The position numbers were made by a program, and so were the translations under genes. Of a stretch of 64,000 nucleotides of DNA, positions 16,122-59,587 are shown one piece after another; the stretch's first letter is position 1; the number at the start of each line of letters is the position of its first letter. Below the pieces are notes generated by a model, which worked only from the letters and a program-made list of their open reading frames with translations, ran no database searches and had not been told where the DNA came from. This stretch comes from Prevotella sp. Its GTDB lineage: Bacteria > Bacteroidota > Bacteroidia > Bacteroidales > Bacteroidaceae. The DNA is taken from contig JAGAPR010000001.1 in assembly GCA_017623155.1 (NCBI GenBank), positions 1-64,000 on the forward strand, written 5' to 3'.

Positions 16122-16522
16122 GAGTGTTAAAAGCAAAAAGTGCGACTTGAAGTCACCGTTTAGAAAGAGCCGATAATTTAAATTGACATTTCCGTATCAT
16201 TATTTGCGGGTTGAGATGCAATTATTCGGGGTTGGACGTGATTTTCGGGTGTTTTTGCTCTGCAATAAGGCCGTAATTGCATTGCATTTACGGCCTTATT
16301 GCGTTCCAATTACGGCCTAATTGGAATGCAATTACGGCCTAATTGGAAATGAGTATGGGTTGTAGGGGAGGTGGAAAAGGTTGATTTTGTAGGTAAAGAA
16401 CTGATAAACAGTACTTTACGTTAAATGTTCTGAGGATGCGTTTTTTTCGCCGAGGAAATTGTTTTTTGAAAAGAACGCAATTATGAAGCCTTATTCTGTA
16501 AATATAATATCATAAATGTTAA
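16122..16522 (+). repeat. 400-bp intergenic repeat element, copy A
   Basis: Matches copy C (56311-56727) in reverse complement over its whole length, about 85% identical by eye. Order: a GACTTGAAGTC palindrome (16144-16154); a hairpin of 15 perfect base pairs, GCAATAAGGCCGTAA (16262-16276) with TTACGGCCTTATTGC (16288-16302); two direct copies of CAATTACGGCCTAATTGG (16307-16324, 16329-16346); a G-rich stretch; and a GCGTT...AACGC pair around a T-rich segment (about 16439-16480). No ORF is shared between the copies, so it is non-coding. No transposase gene is in the window. It lies 177 bp upstream of aspS. Confidence 0.85.
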
Positions 16523-16629
16523 TAAAAAGCCGAAATATTAAATAATTTTAAGAAGACGACAGATGGCTCAGATTAAAAATCCCGAAACGGAAATTCATGG
16601 GTAGTGCAGGTTAAATAGAGAGGCAATAA

Positions 16630-16698: not shown

Positions 16699-18462
16699 AT
16701 GTATAGAAGTAAGACATGTGGAGAGTTGCGTCTCTCCGATGCAGGCAGCGTGGTAACGCTTGCCGGATGGGTGCAGCGTAGTCGCAAGATGGGCGGAATG
16801 ACTTTCGTCGATTTGCGCGACAGATACGGTATCACACAACTTGTGTTTAACGAGGCCGTGGATGCCGCTCTTTGCGAGCGCGCCAACAAGCTCGGCCGCG
16901 AATACTGTATTCAGGTCAGCGGAACGGTGAGTGAGCGCGAGAGCAAAAACAAGAACATCGCCACCGGAGAAATCGAGATTATCGCTTCGGAACTGAATGT
17001 ACTGAGCGAGAGCGTCACCCCGCCGTTCACGATAGAAGACAATACCGACGGCGGAGACGATATCCGCATGAAATACAGATACCTCGATTTGCGCCGTAAT
17101 GCCGTGCGCCGCAATTTGGAATTGCGTCACCGCATGACCATACTCATAAGGAATTTCCTCGATTCAAAAGATTTTATCGAGGTGGAGACTCCTATTCTCA
17201 TCGGTTCCACGCCGGAGGGTGCGCGCGACTTCGTAGTGCCCTCGCGAATGAATCCGGGACAGTTTTATGCCCTGCCGCAGAGCCCTCAGACGCTGAAACA
17301 GCTGCTTATGGTGAGCGGGTTCGACCGTTACTTCCAGATAGCCAAGTGCTTCCGCGACGAGGACTTGCGCGCCGACCGCCAGCCGGAATTCACCCAGATT
17401 GACTGCGAGATGAGTTTCGTGGAGCAGGACGATGTTATCGGCTTGTTTGAGGATATGGCCCGCCATCTGTTCAAGGAGGTGCGCGGTGTGGAACTTCCGG
17501 CAAAGCTCACGCAGATGACATGGCACGAGGCGATGCGCCGTTTCGGTAGCGACAAGCCCGACTTGCGTTTCGGTATGGAGTTTGTCGAACTGATGGACGT
17601 GCTGAAAGGCACGGGAACATTCGCTGTGTTCGACAGTGCCGAGTATATAGGAGGTATCTGCGTGCCCGGTTGCGCCGACTATACCCGCAAGCAGCTCGAC
17701 CAACTTACCGACTTCGTAAAACGCCCGCAGGTAGGCGCGAAAGGTCTTGTATATGTCAAGTACAATGCCGACGGAACGGTGAAGTCGAGCGTCGACAAAT
17801 TCTATTCGCCCGAAGTGTTGCAGGCATTGAAAGAGAAGATGGGAGCCGCCGACGGCGACCTCGTTCTTATTCTGAGCGGCGACAAGGCCAACAAGACCCG
17901 TACGCAGCTATGCACTTTGCGTCTCGAAATGGGCGACCGCCTCGGTCTCCGCGACAAGGATAAGTTTGAGTGCCTGTGGATAATAGACTTCCCCCTCTTT
18001 GAATGGAGCGACGAGGAGCAGCGACTCATGGCCACCCACCACCCGTTCACGATGCCCAATCCCGATGACATTCCGTTGCTCGACGAGCATCCCGACCGGG
18101 TTCGTGCCAAGGCATACGACTTTGTGTGCAACGGTATCGAGCTGGGAGGCGGCAGCCTGCGTATACATGACGGCAAGTTACAGGAAAAAATGTTCCGTAT
18201 TCTCGGGTTCACCCCGGAGCGGGCTATGGCACAGTTCGGCTTCCTCATCAACGCATTCAAGTATGGAGCGCCGCCTCATGCCGGTCTCGCTTTCGGTCTC
18301 GACCGCTTCGTGAGCGTGATGGCCGGTCTCGATTCCATACGCGACTGCATAGCGTTCCCCAAGAACAACAGCGGACGCGACGTGATGCTCGACGCTCCCG
18401 GCGAACTGGATGTGAAACAACTCGAAGAACTTCAATTAAAGGTTGATATACATCAAGAATAA
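16699..18462 (+). CDS. aspS: Aspartyl-tRNA synthetase
   Basis: Charges tRNA-Asp with aspartate. 587 residues, the normal bacterial length. The N-terminal OB-fold anticodon-binding domain is [10 protein letters not shown] to about residue 110 ([20 protein letters not shown]). Class II motif 2 is [18 protein letters not shown], motif 3 includes [12 protein letters not shown], and the bacterial insertion domain lies between (about 280-420). The start at 16699 follows a well-formed promoter. Whether it also charges tRNA-Asn cannot be read from sequence alone. Confidence 0.98.
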
Positions 18463-21163: not shown

Positions 21164-21213
21164 TATCTTTGCATAAGACAGGCTGCGTCTCGGCAATTTG
21201 AAACAAGTTTCAT
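21164..21213 (+). promoter_or_regulatory. Promoter-linked repeat (CATAAGACAGGC type), single copy, upstream of the flippase gene
   Basis: Starts with TATCTTTG (21164-21171, exact -7 consensus), continues CATAAGACAGGC, then a CTCGGCAA block and TTGAAACAAGTTT. The same sequence, with a few changes, is present twice on the minus strand at 44173-44308. It would place the repeat in the 5' leader of the flippase mRNA (ATG at 21248). Confidence 0.7.
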
Positions 21214-27821: not shown

Positions 27822-28044
27822 ATGTCAGATGAACTCCAAATAACATCTTCCATCTAACATTTTTCATTTAACATTTCATCTTTGCGGTTAACTAAAAATG
27901 TGTGAACGAAAAGTAAAAAGTCGATACAAAACATTTTCGCGAAGTAGGTTTTGTTAACTTAAAATATTTAACTGACAAGGTGATTTCTTTAACTTTGCTT
28001 AATGATTACGAGGCTCTTTTTCCCTTTTTAGTTCATTTTTGCCT

Positions 28045-28131
28045 TGCAATAAGGCCGTAATTGCATTGCATTTACGGCCTAACGAGCGTCCAATTAGGCC
28101 GTAATTGGAATGCAATTACGGCCTAATTGGA
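28045..28131 (+). repeat. Hairpin core of the intergenic repeat, copy B (short, divergent)
   Basis: Carries the GGCCGTAATTGCATTGCA core of copies A and C. First hairpin AGGCCGTAA (28052-28060) with TTACGGCCT (28072-28080); second hairpin is a perfect 18-bp stem, CCAATTAGGCCGTAATTG (28090-28107) with CAATTACGGCCTAATTGG (28113-28130), loop GAATG. Unlike copies A and C, the middle module is flipped, turning two direct repeats into one long inverted repeat. The rest of the gap 27822-28356 has no ORF; a TAACTTTG (-7-like) at 27990-27997 points toward the element, and 28210-28290 loosely resembles the right part of copy A. Confidence 0.8.
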
Positions 28132-28356
28132 AAACAAGACGATTTTCGAGGCATTAAAAAATGGCTCAAATACGTGTAAGTATCTAATGCACAAGTATTT
28201 ATATGAAGTGCTTCAAAACTCGCGTATTTGCGCCAAAAAATTTTTTCTTGAAAAAGAATCGATTCTCAGCGATGTTAACATAAAATAATATGACACTTTA
28301 TTTGTATTTCTTTAACTAAAAAGCATGGGAGATGTTAAAATATTGGGTGTCTGATG

Positions 28357-31862: not shown

Positions 31863-33029
31863 TTAATTACGATTTTCGAAATATTTTTTGCGATGTATTA
31901 TCTTTGTCAGGTTCAGCAGAGAGGCTAAAATGATGAAAGGAGCCTTGAAGAAAGATTTGTCCCATTTGTCGTCTACGAGATAATCGGGAGTGGCACAGGC
32001 CAAGACGAGCATGGTGACGGCAAAGAGTATCCACCATTTTACGGCCAATGTGAAATAGATAAACGGCATGACGATGCTCATGAGTACCATGAGAGCAATC
32101 ATTATGGTGCGGGGAATGAGCATCCATTGTATTACCTTATCGGCGAAATCGTATCTTTTTTTCAGTAAGGCAAAGGGTAGATAATGCACGTTTGACAAGA
32201 ACGAACGCAGCTGTGTGGATGCCCACCGGCCTCTTTGTGTGTTGAAATCGGCGGATTGTCGTGTCTTTTCATCATACACAAGGATATTGTCGAAATAGTC
32301 GACGTATATGTGCTGGCGCATGAGCAAGGCTTCAATCTCCTTGTCGTCCCATCCGGTATTTACATTCATGATGTTTTCTTTGAACCATTTGAAGTCGTAG
32401 GCTATGCCGGAGCCGGAAGTGGCAGAGGATATACCGAGTGTTATGTGGCCGCGACGGAATATCGAATTGTTTATCTCTTCAAATATGGCATCAAGGTTTG
32501 CTATTGCCGTATCTCGGTTTTTTGACAGTCGGTGGGCCTGTATCGCTTTTGTTCCCGCGGTCTCGAAAGCGTCGTTCATCTGCTGAAGGAACTCGGGCTC
32601 TACCACAGAACCTGCGTCAAGCACGATGACGATGTCGTATATCTTGAATTGTGGCAGATTGTTGATTGCCAGTTGCAGTGACTTGGCTTTCGTGCTGTCA
32701 GCGAAATCCGGGATCAGCAGTGTTATAGGATACTGTGCAAGCCGGAAGTTGGTGATTTCTTCCTGATGGTCGGAAATCACGGTGATGTCGAACAGACGTT
32801 GCGGGTATGTCTGTCCGAGCGCGGTCTTTACCGTCTGTTCTATGCATTTATCTTTTTTATATGCCGGAATAAGAATGATGAAGCGATTTTGCCGCTTGGC
32901 AGGTGGAATGTGCGAACGCTTGTTGAAAAGTGACGCTATCGAGAAAACAGTGAGGTATAATACCGTCAGTGCAGTGAAAACAAACAGTATTATATCTATT
33001 GTATATATGATAATCCATCCGATGCTCAT
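31863..33029 (-). CDS. Membrane glycosyltransferase family 2 paralogue with altered D-x-D site
   Basis: 388 residues with the same layout as its neighbour: N-terminal helix (IDIILFVFTALTVLYLTVFS), GT-A domain, C-terminal helices (IMIALMVLMSIVMPFIYFTL). It keeps GWDDKEIEALL and TQRGRWASTQ (Q-x-x-R-W), but the metal-binding site reads VIVLDAGSVVEPEF, so the second Asp of D-A-D is Gly. The codons (GAC GCA GGT, minus strand near 32620) are unambiguous. It may use a different divalent-metal geometry, be inactive, or act as a partner of the intact paralogue. Four bp separate it from the upstream GT2. Confidence 0.85.
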   Translation of the reverse strand: MSIGWIIIYTIDIILFVFTALTVLYLTVFSIASLFNKRSHIPPAKRQNRFIILIPAYKKDKCIEQTVKTALGQTYPQRLFDITVISDHQEEITNFRLAQYPITLLIPDFADSTKAKSLQLAINNLPQFKIYDIVIVLDAGSVVEPEFLQQMNDAFETAGTKAIQAHRLSKNRDTAIANLDAIFEEINNSIFRRGHITLGISSATSGSGIAYDFKWFKENIMNVNTGWDDKEIEALLMRQHIYVDYFDNILVYDEKTRQSADFNTQRGRWASTQLRSFLSNVHYLPFALLKKRYDFADKVIQWMLIPRTIMIALMVLMSIVMPFIYFTLAVKWWILFAVTMLVLACATPDYLVDDKWDKSFFKAPFIILASLLNLTKIIHRKKYFENRN

Positions 33030-43703: not shown

Positions 43704-43879
43704 CTCGCAGTTAATATTTAGTTACTTCATAATTAATATTTAATTGCGTCGCAGTTAATATTTAATTGTGTCGCAGTTAATATTTAATTGTGTCGCAGTT
43801 AATATTTAATTGCGTCGCAGTTAATATCTCGTTGTCGGGTGATTAATGCTTAATTGCGACATGATTAATATTCGGTTAT
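43704..43879. repeat. Tandem array of eight 22-bp units
   Basis: Contiguous 22-bp units begin at 43704, 43726, 43748, 43770, 43792, 43814, 43836 and 43858. The best-conserved four (43748-43835) share CGCAGTTAATAT; three of them also share TTAATTG. The outer units are more degenerate. Units touch each other with no spacers, so this is not a CRISPR array. It is in the 1013-bp gap (43370-44382) that contains no credible gene. Confidence 0.9.
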
Positions 43880-43991: not shown

Positions 43992-44172
43992 GCTATAAGT
44001 ATGTGTGCAGCGTCACGTTCGGCGTTGCATGGTTGATGAATTATCAAAAAATCGGGTTTGTGTTTTTGCATAAATATGCAAAAACGTATGTGCCACGTGG
44101 GTGATAAAAGAGTTATTTTCGCAATGGTTATTCATGATATCTTTGTTTGATTATTAAGTTTACGGATGGCAA

Positions 44173-44308
44173 GACAGTGCAAATCGAGCGCGACTAAACT
44201 TGTTTCAAGTTGCCGAGATGCCGCCTGTCTTATGCAAAGACAGTGCAAATCGAGCGCGACTAAACTTGTTTCAAGTTGCCGAGATGCCGCCTGTCTTATG
44301 CAAAGATA
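44173..44308 (-). repeat. Two exact 66-bp direct repeats of the promoter-linked CATAAGACAGGC element
   Basis: Units 44173-44238 and 44239-44304 are identical. Read on the minus strand, the array starts with TATCTTTG (44308-44301, exact -7 consensus), then CATAAGACAGGC, CTCGGCAA, TTGAAACAAGTTTAG and a tail ending GCACTGTC; at the unit boundary the -7 becomes TGTCTTTG. It is the same element as 21164-21213. It lies downstream of the leftward nucleotidyltransferase gene and faces the non-coding block, with no ORF after it. Translated frames give the repeated peptide CIRQAASRQLETS, which I take to be an artefact. Confidence 0.85.
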
Positions 44309-56171: not shown

Positions 56172-56210
56172 GGAAGCCCCTCCCGGCCTCCCCAAAGGGG
56201 AGGAGAAGTG
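56168..56210 (+). repeat. REP-like repeat, copy 2 (related to 43951-43991)
   Basis: GTGAGGAAGCCCCTCCCGGC then CTCCCCAAAGGGGAGGAGAA GTG; contains the stem CTCCCC-AAA-GGGGAG. Starts at the end of the membrane protein gene. I recall similar CTCCCC...GGGGAG repeats being common in this group. Confidence 0.7.
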
Positions 56211-56219
56211 CAGAGTTTA

Positions 56220-56303
56220 GAGTTTAGAGTGCAGAGTGATGAGTTATGATTACCATTAAGTCCTGAAAGTAATCAAAAACTCATCACTTTGCACCCTAAA
56301 CTC
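56220..56303. repeat. 84-bp imperfect palindrome with 26-bp outer arms
   Basis: Outer arms: 56220-56245 (GAGTTTAGAGTGCAGAGTGA then TGAGTT) and 56278-56303, reverse complements with two mismatches, both G-T type. Inside, TGATTAC (56247-56253) pairs with GTAATCA (56269-56275). Together they can fold into one long hairpin. Confidence 0.8.
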
Positions 56304-56310
56304 ACCATTC

Positions 56311-56727
56311 AAATGTTAATGCGTATTAAACGCATTAACATTTCTGATATTATATTTACAAAATAAGGCCTCATATTTGCGTTCTTTTCAAAAAAAAGTT
56401 TCCACGGCGAAAAAAACGCATTCTCAGAGCATTTAGTATAAAATACTGTCTGTCAGTCCATTACCTACAAAACCTACCTTCCCTACGTCTCCTACAACCC
56501 CTACCGTTTTCCAATTAGGCCGTAATTGCATTCCAATTAGGCCGTAATTGGAACGCAATAAGGCCGTAAATGCAATGCAATTACGGCCTAATTGCAGAGC
56601 AAAAACACCCGAAAATCATGCCCGACCCCGAATAATTGCATCTCAACCCCGAAATAATGACACAAAAGTGTCAATTTAAATTCTCGGCTTTTTCTAAACG
56701 GTGACTTCAAGTCGCACTTTTTGTGTT
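56311..56727 (-). repeat. 400-bp intergenic repeat element, copy C
   Basis: Reverse complement of copy A (16122-16522), about 85% identical by eye, with matching order of parts: the G+C-rich palindrome block at 56511-56600, the GACTTCAAGTC palindrome near 56703-56713 and the AACGC/GCGTT pair. It has an additional GACAC-TTTT-GTGTC stem that copy A lacks, and a perfect 13-bp hairpin at its left end (56311-56323 with 56331-56343), present only in part in copy A. It lies 220 bp upstream of valS. Confidence 0.85.
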
Positions 56728-56796
56728 TAACAATTGCCTTGCGATTTTACAATATTTAAAGGTAGGAAAGGCTGCGCTTAGAAACACGCCGCACGT

Positions 56797-56947: not shown

Positions 56948-59587
56948 ATGGAATTAGCAAGCAAGTACGACCCGCAAGCAGTGGAGTCGAAATGGTATCA
57001 GTATTGGCTTGACAACAAACTGTTCAGCAGCAAGCCCGACGGTAGAAAACCATACACGATAGTAATACCGCCGCCAAACGTGACGGGAGTGTTGCACATG
57101 GGACACATGCTCAACAATACCATTCAGGACATTCTTGTGCGTCGTGCACGCATGGAGGGAAAGAACGCGTGCTGGGTGCCCGGCACCGACCATGCCTCCA
57201 TCGCTACGGAGGCCAAGGTCGTGGGCAGGCTCGCACAGCAGGGAATAAAGAAGACCGACCTCACGCGCGACGAGTTTTTGAAGCACGCATGGGAGTGGAC
57301 CGACGAGCACGGAGGAATAATATTGAAGCAGTTGCGCCGCTTGGGCGCGAGTTGCGACTGGGACCGCACGGCGTTCACGATGGACGAGACACGCTCGAAA
57401 GGCGTGATAAAGGTGTTCTGCGACCTGTATGACAAGGGACTGATATATCGCGGCGCGCGCATGGTGAACTGGGATCCGCAGGCCCAAACGGCACTTTCCG
57501 ATGAGGAAGTGATATACAAGGAAGAGCAGTCGAAGCTATACTACCTGCGATATATGGTCGACGGCGAACCGGGGAAATATGCCATCGTGGCAACAACACG
57601 CCCCGAGACAATCATGGGCGACACGGCGATGTGCATCAATCCCAACGACCCCAAAAACCAGTGGCTGCGCGGCAAGCACGTGATAGTGCCGTTAGTGGGC
57701 CGCCGGATACCGGTGATAGAAGACGATTATGTGGATATCGAGTTCGGTACGGGATGCCTGAAAGTGACTCCGGCACACGATATCAATGACCACGCGCTCG
57801 GTATCAAGCACAATCTGGAGACGATAGACATTTTCAACGACAATGGAACGATAAGCGAAGCGGCAGGAATGTACGTGGGAATGGACCGTATGGACGTGCG
57901 CGTGAAGATAGAGGAAGACCTCAAAGCGGCCGGACTCATGGAGAAAGTGGAAGACTACACCAACAAGGTGGGCTTCTCCGAGCGCACCAATGTGCCAATC
58001 GAACCGAAACTCTCCACGCAGTGGTTCCTCTCAATGAAGCATTTTGCCGATATCGCCCTGCCGCCGGTGATGAACGACGACATCAAATTCTACCCGTCGA
58101 AATACAAGAACACGTATCGCCACTGGCTCGAAAACATAAAGGACTGGTGCATCAGCCGCCAGTTGTGGTGGGGACACCGCATACCCGCCTACTACTACAC
58201 CACGGCCGACGGAAAGCGCGAATTTGTCGTGGCAGAGAGTAGGGAAGCGGCTCTTGCTGCCGCACGCACGAAGAATTCGGCTCTCATCGATGCCGACTTG
58301 GAGCAGGACGAGGACTGTCTCGACACGTGGTTCTCGAGCTGGTTGTGGCCCATGTCGGTGTTCGACGGCGTCAACAACCCCGGTAACGAGGAGATTGACT
58401 ACTACTATCCCACAAGCGATCTCGTCACCGGACCGGACATAATATTCTTCTGGGTGGCCCGAATGATAATGGCCGGATACGAATATCGCGGCACGATGCC
58501 GTTCAAGAATGTTTATTTCACGGGTATCGTTCGCGACAAGCTCGGGCGTAAGATGTCGAAAAGCCTCGGCAACTCGCCCGACCCGCTGCTGCTTATCGAC
58601 AAGTACGGAGCCGACGGTGTGCGCATGGGAATGATGCTCTCTGCTCCCGCCGGCAACGACATTCTCTTCGACGAGAGCCTCTGCGAGCAGGGACGCAACT
58701 TCAACAACAAGATATGGAATGCTTTCCGACTTGTGAAAGGATGGCAGGTGGCCGACACCGAGCAGCCCGAGGCATGCAGAATTGCCACGGAATGGTTTGC
58801 CGCAAAACTGCGCCGTACAAATGCCGAGATAGACGATCTGTTCCGTAAATATCGTATCAGCGAGGCTCTCATGGCCGTATATCGCCTGTTCTGGGACGAG
58901 TTCTCAAGCTGGTATCTCGAAATGATAAAGCCGGCTTACGGACAACCGATAGACAGCGCGACGCTCAATGCCACGTTAGGTTTCTTCGAAACGCTGCTGA
59001 AAATGCTGCATCCGTTCATGCCTTTCATCACCGAAGAGTTGTGGCAGCACATCTACGACCGTGAAGATGGTGAGTCGATAATGCGCGACAAGCTCGAAAT
59101 GGAAGCCGTGACAGAGACCGACGACCGTTTGATAGAGGGAATAGAGTGCGTGAAGCAGATTGTGGGCGGCGTGCGTACGGTGCGCAATCAGAAGAACATC
59201 GCACCGAAAGAGGTGTTGACATTGCAGGCCGTGAACGCCAACAATTACGAGGCTTACAACAGCGTAATATCGAAAATGGCCAATCTCGGGGCAATAGACG
59301 TGGTGGAAGAGAAAGACTCCACGGCTGCGGCATTCATGGTGGGAACAGATGAGTTTGCCGTTCCATTGGGCGATATGATAGATGTTGAGGCTGAAATAGA
59401 AAAATTGGAAGCCCAGCTCAAGCACCTCGAAGGCTTCCTTGCCGGTGTGAGGAAGAAGCTTTCCAACGAGAAATTCGTGGCTCATGCCCCCGAGGCCGTC
59501 GTGGCTTTGGAGCGCAAAAAAGAGAGCGATAGCGAGGAAAAGATTGCCGCTATCAAGGATTCTCTTGCCGCGTTGAAGAGTAAATAA
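56948..59587 (+). CDS. valS: Valyl-tRNA synthetase
   Basis: Charges tRNA-Val. 879 residues, class I. Start codon gives [20 protein letters not shown]. The HIGH motif is [15 protein letters not shown], the editing (CP1) domain spans about 190-350 ([19 protein letters not shown]), KMSKS is [14 protein letters not shown], and the C-terminal anticodon-binding domain is followed by a coiled coil (about 815-879) with alternating Leu/Glu/Lys as usual for ValRS. All expected domains are intact. Confidence 0.98.

Follow-up and report, generated by a model that had tools for sequence, protein, structure and literature searches.

Prokaryotic MITEs are described, in the portion of the literature available here, as short, non-coding, intergenic and high-copy sequences (PMC10969869). 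Among the Bacteroidota, the accessible part of the BrickBuilt description presents a MITE of Porphyromonas gingivalis with 19 copies, built of 23-nt direct tandem repeats without spacers (PMC4596501). Its ends read GAGAC and are most like those of ISPg1/ISPg9 (IS5 family), according to the same partial text (PMC4596501). REP/BIME and RAYT repeats, as far as the accessible text of their descriptions goes, are high-copy extragenic palindromes that alternate in orientation and are possible protein sites (PMC2817692, PMC3733652); a GTAG or CGTC tag beside the palindrome is given there as a feature of the REPIN/RAYT system (PMC3733652).

The window, which is the whole 64,000-nucleotide stretch of a Prevotella sp. 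contig analysed here (JAGAPR010000001.1, assembly GCA_017623155.1), contains three copies (A, B and C) of a repeat that shares traits with each of these systems. The copies are best read as members of a superfamily of ~440–470-bp non-coding intergenic MITE-like elements, with A and C in an A family and B in a second (B) family; each element has AT-rich ends and structured 5' and 3' domains. Like the prokaryotic MITEs so described, A/B elements are short, non-coding, intergenic and high-copy. Like BrickBuilt in its partly available description, they are intergenic, have a leader and a tail around a short-period array, occur in several copies in a limited range of hosts within the Bacteroidota, and contain no transposase. 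With the REP/BIME and RAYT repeats they share, on the accessible text, the high-copy extragenic palindromes, the alternating orientation and the possible role as protein sites. The positions of the copies and of their parts are collected in Table 1.

Table 1. Repeat elements of the window and their internal parts
Feature	Position	Strand	Basis
Copy A, complete A-family element, TTAA to TTAA	16098..16541	+	sequence and family boundaries
Core of copy A, four 17-bp dyads, 22-bp pitch	16263..16345	+	tandem period 22, fold z -9.4
Dyads of the copy A core	16263-16279, 16285-16301, 16307-16323, 16329-16345	+	read from the sequence
Conserved 5' domain motif GTGCGACTTGAAGTCACCGTTTAGA with small hairpin GACTTGAAGTC, copy A	16140..16164	+	46 places in own genome
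Copy B, B-family element (own 5' third and ends, common core, related 3' hairpin)	27868..28338	+	
Core of copy B, four dyads, 22-bp pitch	28047..28129	+	tandem-repeat period
Copy C, complete A-family element	56316..56759	-	sequence and alignment
Core of copy C, four dyads, 22-bp pitch	56512..56594	-	tandem-repeat period

Copies A and C match far beyond chance, at 87.9% identity over 429 bp in the alignment (the original prediction had estimated about 85%) and at 89% over ~414 bp (E 4e-152) in the similarity search. The ends first proposed for them (16122-16522 and 56311-56727) were slightly off; measured from TTAA to TTAA, each copy is 444 bp long, with a further TTAA just outside the right edge of copy A (16548-16551). 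Copy B has the core in common with copy A and the 3' hairpin in common in part. The elements range from 444 to 471 bp, which lies within the MITE range of 50-1000 bp.

An A-family element begins on the left with TTAA and an AT-rich stretch, followed by a conserved 5' domain (GTGCGACTTGAAGTCACCG...) and then the core; beyond the core come a 3' domain that includes an imperfect hairpin and, on the right, an AT-rich end whose three TTAA are ~9-10 bp apart, the last of them forming the edge. The palindromic block stands as first described. The core consists of four imperfect 17-bp palindromes separated by 5-bp spacers, at a pitch of 22 bp, with units 3-4 reading CAATTA-CGGCC-TAATTG; one A copy (L091) has an extra core unit. 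A single-stranded DNA fold of the copy A core shows two long hairpins. The GTGCGAC at the start of the A 5' domain resembles the 5' end of a group II intron; derivation from such an intron was rejected, with no intron match in Rfam.

Among seven flanking open reading frames compared with Pfam, no transposase or recombinase is found, as had been noted from the sequence. Five have a Pfam match, namely a GH88 hydrolase and AspS beside copy A, a glycosyltransferase to the left of copy B, and a response regulator and a class I ValS-type tRNA synthetase beside copy C; the other two matched no Pfam family. The best solved-structure match of the window AspS is the aspartate-tRNA ligase 6wom (826 bits), an enzyme from a member of the Bacteroidota. 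In the window, each of the two A-family copies is situated immediately upstream of a gene for an aminoacyl-tRNA synthetase (AspS, 16699-18462; ValS-type, 56948-59587).

Further repeats occur in and around these elements. A hairpin repeat, CTCCCC(A/T)nGGGGAGG..GGG.GGGGCTT, was recognised by reading near the TTAA edge of five A copies (L003, L010, L011, L024 and L025) and at 56180-56230 of the window, pointing to that edge. Window positions 43705-43872 hold a separate array of seven to eight 17+5 units (CAGTTA-ATATT-TAATTG, spacer TGTCG/CGTCG) at the same 22-bp pitch; its arms are nearly those of the A/B core, its centre is different, and A or B flanks are absent. It is the sole array of this second type in 642 kb of loci from the same genome, a total in which overlapping stretches are counted repeatedly. 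At 44171-44306 there is a perfect 66-bp tandem duplication (2.1 copies), a 45-47-bp part of which recurs inverted 23 kb away at 21164-21210 with ~93% identity.

Copy number in the genome of origin (2.74 Mb, 104 contigs, 83.8% complete) is high. The original prediction held the element to be present twice and proposed a search of the whole genome and its relatives; the count was more than 20-fold too low, with 47 A copies, a third window copy (B) and a core found at at least 91 places at ≤1 mismatch among the matches listed. The A-family 5' motif accounts for 46 places at ≤3 mismatches and for the 47th at 4 mismatches. Copy B matches at least 40 places (40 of 138 candidates scored), and the B left end is present at 34/40 of these at ≤5 mismatches and at 38/40 at ≤8, against none in a control of 359 kb from the congener G168. 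The 98 listed core places were assigned to A (47), B (29) and others (22); since 11 further B places have no listed core, the total comes to ~109 core places among the matches listed, a figure that includes contig-end fragments, so that one copy split between two contigs may be counted twice. Further types of end were recognised by reading at L213, L219, L223, L228, L229 and L231, and also at L215, L216, L220 and L221; some loci of this kind sit among the 40 B-matching places.

Sequence conservation within the A family is centred on the core. Across the 39 of 47 A copies long enough for full alignment (the other eight end at contig ends), mean pairwise identity falls from 0.97 for the core and 0.87 for the 5' domain to 0.70 for the 3' domain and 0.64 for the right end. 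Twelve of these 39 copies are mosaics that carry a different 3' part behind the same core, often B-like by reading. Mosaic tails and an identity peak in the core are the pattern to be expected from exchange among copies there.

A and B elements alike terminate in TTAA on both sides. Outside the left TTAA, the information profile of 47 A and 39 B left ends stays at ≤0.5 bit per position. A is less sharply bounded on the right: in 22 A copies, restricted to rows with standard spacing, composition is near random at the first base beyond the final TTAA and A/T-rich at positions 2-4 (0.8-1.2 bits), after which the profile falls. By eye, the A ends match inverted at ~13-14/20 bases, yet they also read as direct repeats. 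The flanks of 28 A copies were compared for direct repeats of 2-10 bp, and none stood out as a target-site duplication (TSD); in this search a duplicated TTAA is indistinguishable from the A element ends. Among thousands of flank position pairs the highest match is 0.46, where 0.25 is expected.

The elements are intergenic and unevenly placed with respect to gene orientation. With a simple codon-based gene caller, no gene call overlaps 46/47 A copies or 35/39 B copies, and of the four overlaps in B, three involve low-scoring reading frames within the element. The genes on either side are known for 71 A and B copies (a count that leaves out 11 A and 4 B copies with an unknown neighbour); of these, 39 lie between divergent, 27 between tandem and 5 between convergent genes. 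Divergent placement was expected at 27% from intergenic bases or 31% from spaces of ≥300 bp (p 6e-7 and 3e-5), and convergent placement at 18-19% (deficit p 0.018 and 0.009); this null is the congeners' intergenic DNA, including their own elements, with a codon table trained on the window. The 3' ends of genes are the usual location of REP-type repeats, so the A/B placement is unlike theirs.

The letters of the repeats are species-specific; their architecture is not. The A motif occurs in 0/397 other sampled congeners, copy A matched nothing in 39 relatives, and a search for exact motifs in genome_contigs (84,980 species, contigs of 3 kb and more), from which the genome of origin or a near one may itself be missing, gave none. 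A plasmid or phage origin was rejected: copy A matched no plasmids or phages, and exact motifs are absent from viral contigs. An element of congener G366 likewise gave nothing, and a 20-kb piece of the window matched plasmids only in short aspS pieces.

The nearest relatives by DNA around aspS are G351 (86% identity), followed by G144, G314 and G168 (82%), all without the A motif. Self-comparison of the syntenic stretches of G351, G314 and G168, and of later stretches of G144, shows that each of these congeners carries repeats of its own, comparable in size and with a palindromic core. G351 is collinear with the window over 44 kb, and here sites differ in occupancy: the window has 567 bp at the site of copy B where G351 has 127 bp, and for the site of a G351 element (32537-32900) the lengths are 587 bp (G351) and 22 bp (window). 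Where copy A lies, both species have an element in the intergenic region, with unrelated letters. A similar pair was seen in G144 (C3:7714-7814, L306) and G168 (C8 near 17005, L259), where the same intergenic region has elements with unrelated letters. Between G314 and G144, at ~94% identity, three elements lie at the same sites in both, and turnover is slow for this reason. Element turnover between species is real and slow, and insertion and loss both fit the occupied and unoccupied sites. No empty site could be read to the base in G351, G314, G168 or G144, because intergenic DNA diverges too fast or holds other repeats, even at 86-94% identity.

The four-dyad layout recurs across sampled congeners. 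A scan of 1.43 Mb from 13 congeners at pitches of 16-30 (arms matching at ≥18/24) gave 32 arrays at pitch 22, against 0, 0, 0, 0, 1, 1, 1, 2, 2, 2, 2, 2, 3 and 4 at the other pitches. At threshold 18, pitch-22 arrays are present in 8/13 congeners, with half of the 32 in G168; the single G361 array looks like chance by eye, and some G133 arrays overlap or look doubtful. G351 has no pitch-22 array at this threshold, though its elements are clear by repeat comparison. A small outgroup sample (46 kb drawn from four genomes in other families, of which one contributed 1.3 kb) gave 0 arrays at pitch 22 and 0-1 at others. The arms differ by species, as in CAAAAG...CTTTTG (G366), CRAAAC...GTTTYG (G074), CGAGAG...CTCTCG (G138) and TGGATG...CATCCA (G133). 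Folded as DNA, arrays of four species reach z values of -9.4, -6.2, -4.8 and -10.4, the three congener arrays having been preselected for symmetry. The dyad layout (four blocks, 22 bases apart) thus appears to be kept between species while the letters are replaced. Three G366 arrays (L280 6714, L282 12126 and L283 16001) are flanked by palindromes such as TGTATATTTATACA and TGCATGTTTATGCA. These palindromes resemble ARG boxes and may be the end sites used by the elements of G366.

The congener G168 offers a view that does not depend on selection for symmetry, as its cores were found by homology. They occupy 26 places in a 421-kb sample and read as five 17-bp units with 5-bp spacers; arms are complementary at 3.7/6 positions in this 17+5 frame versus 0.9-2.1 in all 16 shifted frames. 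By reading, the halves draw on a small vocabulary (CAACGG, CCGTAA, CAATAA, CCGCGG and CCGGGA). In 18 non-redundant cores of the 26, copy-specific pairing reached uncorrected p<0.05 for 2/15 unit pairs (U3-U5, 0.0095; U1-U4, 0.0375), and a mutual-information contact map of the 26 cores gave noise. As pairing here is hardly copy-specific, a strict hairpin requirement is not supported and a vocabulary of half-sites fits as well.

Of the three options raised in the original prediction, a non-autonomous mobile element is favoured, and we hold with about even confidence that this is a MITE-like intergenic element, mobilised in trans, with a dyad-array core. In such an element, the central array of four (sometimes five) 17-bp dyads can fold into one or two long hairpins, and an enzyme supplied in trans would recognise the ends and would have spread the copies. 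Recombination or gene conversion centred on the near-identical core may keep it uniform within a species; the same exchange might let the core drift to new letters between species with the dyad geometry retained. Support comes from the copy number, dispersal and non-coding nature of the elements, their TTAA edges, the mosaics, the occupied versus unoccupied sites and the congener geometry. Against this reading stand the absence of a TSD in 28 A copies, of a base-level empty site and of an autonomous partner or parent enzyme, the slow turnover indicated by the sites shared between G314 and G144, and the blurred right edge of A; the excess between divergent genes is not expected of a neutral selfish element and argues against one. 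The search for an autonomous partner found the A left end at 31 places at the stringency used, all 31 beside the A 5' motif. The search for a mobilising enzyme covered the Y1 (IS200/RAYT) transposase family only, which is absent from 7/10 genomes, among them array carriers such as the genome of origin (84% complete), G314 (99%) and the one-contig G366 (99%). Mobilisation of the palindromes by a Y1 (IS200-like) transposase, as in REPIN/RAYT systems, would suit dispersed intergenic palindromes of alternating orientation, but with Y1 in only 3/10 genomes its general role as mobiliser is largely refuted and the explanation is barely credible. A site-specific element whose ~30-bp direct-repeat ends are read by a tyrosine recombinase, with insertion and excision that leave no TSD, would account for the missing duplication and for ends that read like equally spaced direct repeats in A (TGTAAAnAT...TGTTAAnnGC) and in relatives (TGTCA...TTTAACACTT); at 5/26 core places of G168, TTTAACACTT (≤1 mismatch) is present to the left and to the right in one orientation. 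The match of the ends is, however, partial and made by eye, B fits it unclearly, and the paired ends are missing from 21/26 G168 places, which makes this a quite improbable origin.

Next after the mobile element comes a chromosomal site of the BIME kind, which we regard as possible though doubtful. Here the dyad array would be bound by a dimeric host protein, or extruded as a cruciform under negative supercoiling, with about one half-site per 11 bp; its role would lie in nucleoid organisation or in the insulation of divergent promoters, and its specificity would drift between species. The fixed 17+5 geometry with arms replaced in several congeners is consistent with this, as is the bias towards divergent (39/71) and away from convergent (5/71) genes. 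A fixed 22-bp pitch of dyads and the divergent bias are both what the chromosome-organisation option of the original prediction would lead one to expect, and the G168 vocabulary of halves, with its unclear copy-specific pairing, fits sites better than a strict hairpin. But no candidate protein has emerged, the G168 vocabulary is wider than one protein's half-site needs, and the occupied and unoccupied sites, the mosaic tails and the TTAA ends are left unexplained. Rather unlikely, in our estimate, is a reading of the arrays as an address system: about a hundred or more per genome, at an invariant 22-bp pitch, mainly between divergent genes, genus-wide and fast-diverging, they would be more than a by-product of transposition, with half-site letters replaced in step with a putative co-evolving DNA-binding or hairpin-reading factor. 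The remaining option of the original prediction, a structured RNA gene family, would have the elements transcribed and the hairpins as their conserved part. The strong core folds in four species (obtained by DNA folding) and the conserved 5' domain point towards it, and the analysis of compensatory changes that had been suggested (RNAalifold, 39 A copies) found at least one such change in 8 of 67 pairs. Yet the covariation term is only -1.25 kcal/mol, pairing in G168 is not clearly above expectation (2/15 unit pairs at uncorrected p<0.05), and the window has no Rfam match at gathering score, the sub-threshold matches being six microRNA-family and one sRNA (E 0.013-0.81). The Bacteroidota -7 motif, TAnnTTTG, stands at no fixed place in A, with at most 3/47 copies sharing a position. 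This option is weak, and an RNA family is improbable.

If the mobile-element reading is true, the genomes of a species-rich genus each hold roughly a hundred elements, a number counted here (~109 core places among the matches listed) and extrapolated elsewhere, for example from the 26 places in 421 kb of G168. Intergenic repeats are usually found by sequence, and families with a fixed layout and replaced letters therefore escape ordinary searches. Such repeats break assemblies, as 11 listed core places lie ≤125 bases from contig starts. They also sit in promoter regions and could affect divergent gene pairs. The fixed 22-bp pitch provides a direct handle for a survey and for finding a factor that reads the array.

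The openly available literature yielded no published description of the A/B repeat family. The closest published relative found is BrickBuilt, which on the available part of its description differs in repeat unit, ends and range: A/B elements have dyads at a 22-bp pitch with 5-bp spacers, TTAA ends and ~109 core places among the matches listed, and their geometry recurs in congeners with other letters. Compared with the REP/BIME and RAYT repeats as far as their accessible descriptions go, the A/B array of four dyads at a fixed 22-bp pitch lies inside a TTAA-ended element of 440-470 bp, Y1 is absent in 7/10 genomes, and the copies are enriched between divergent genes. From the prokaryotic MITEs, within the portion of the literature considered, A/B elements differ in having no TSD, no parent IS found (Y1 searched) and ends that are partly inverted, and above all in a geometry that is kept while the sequence is replaced between species.
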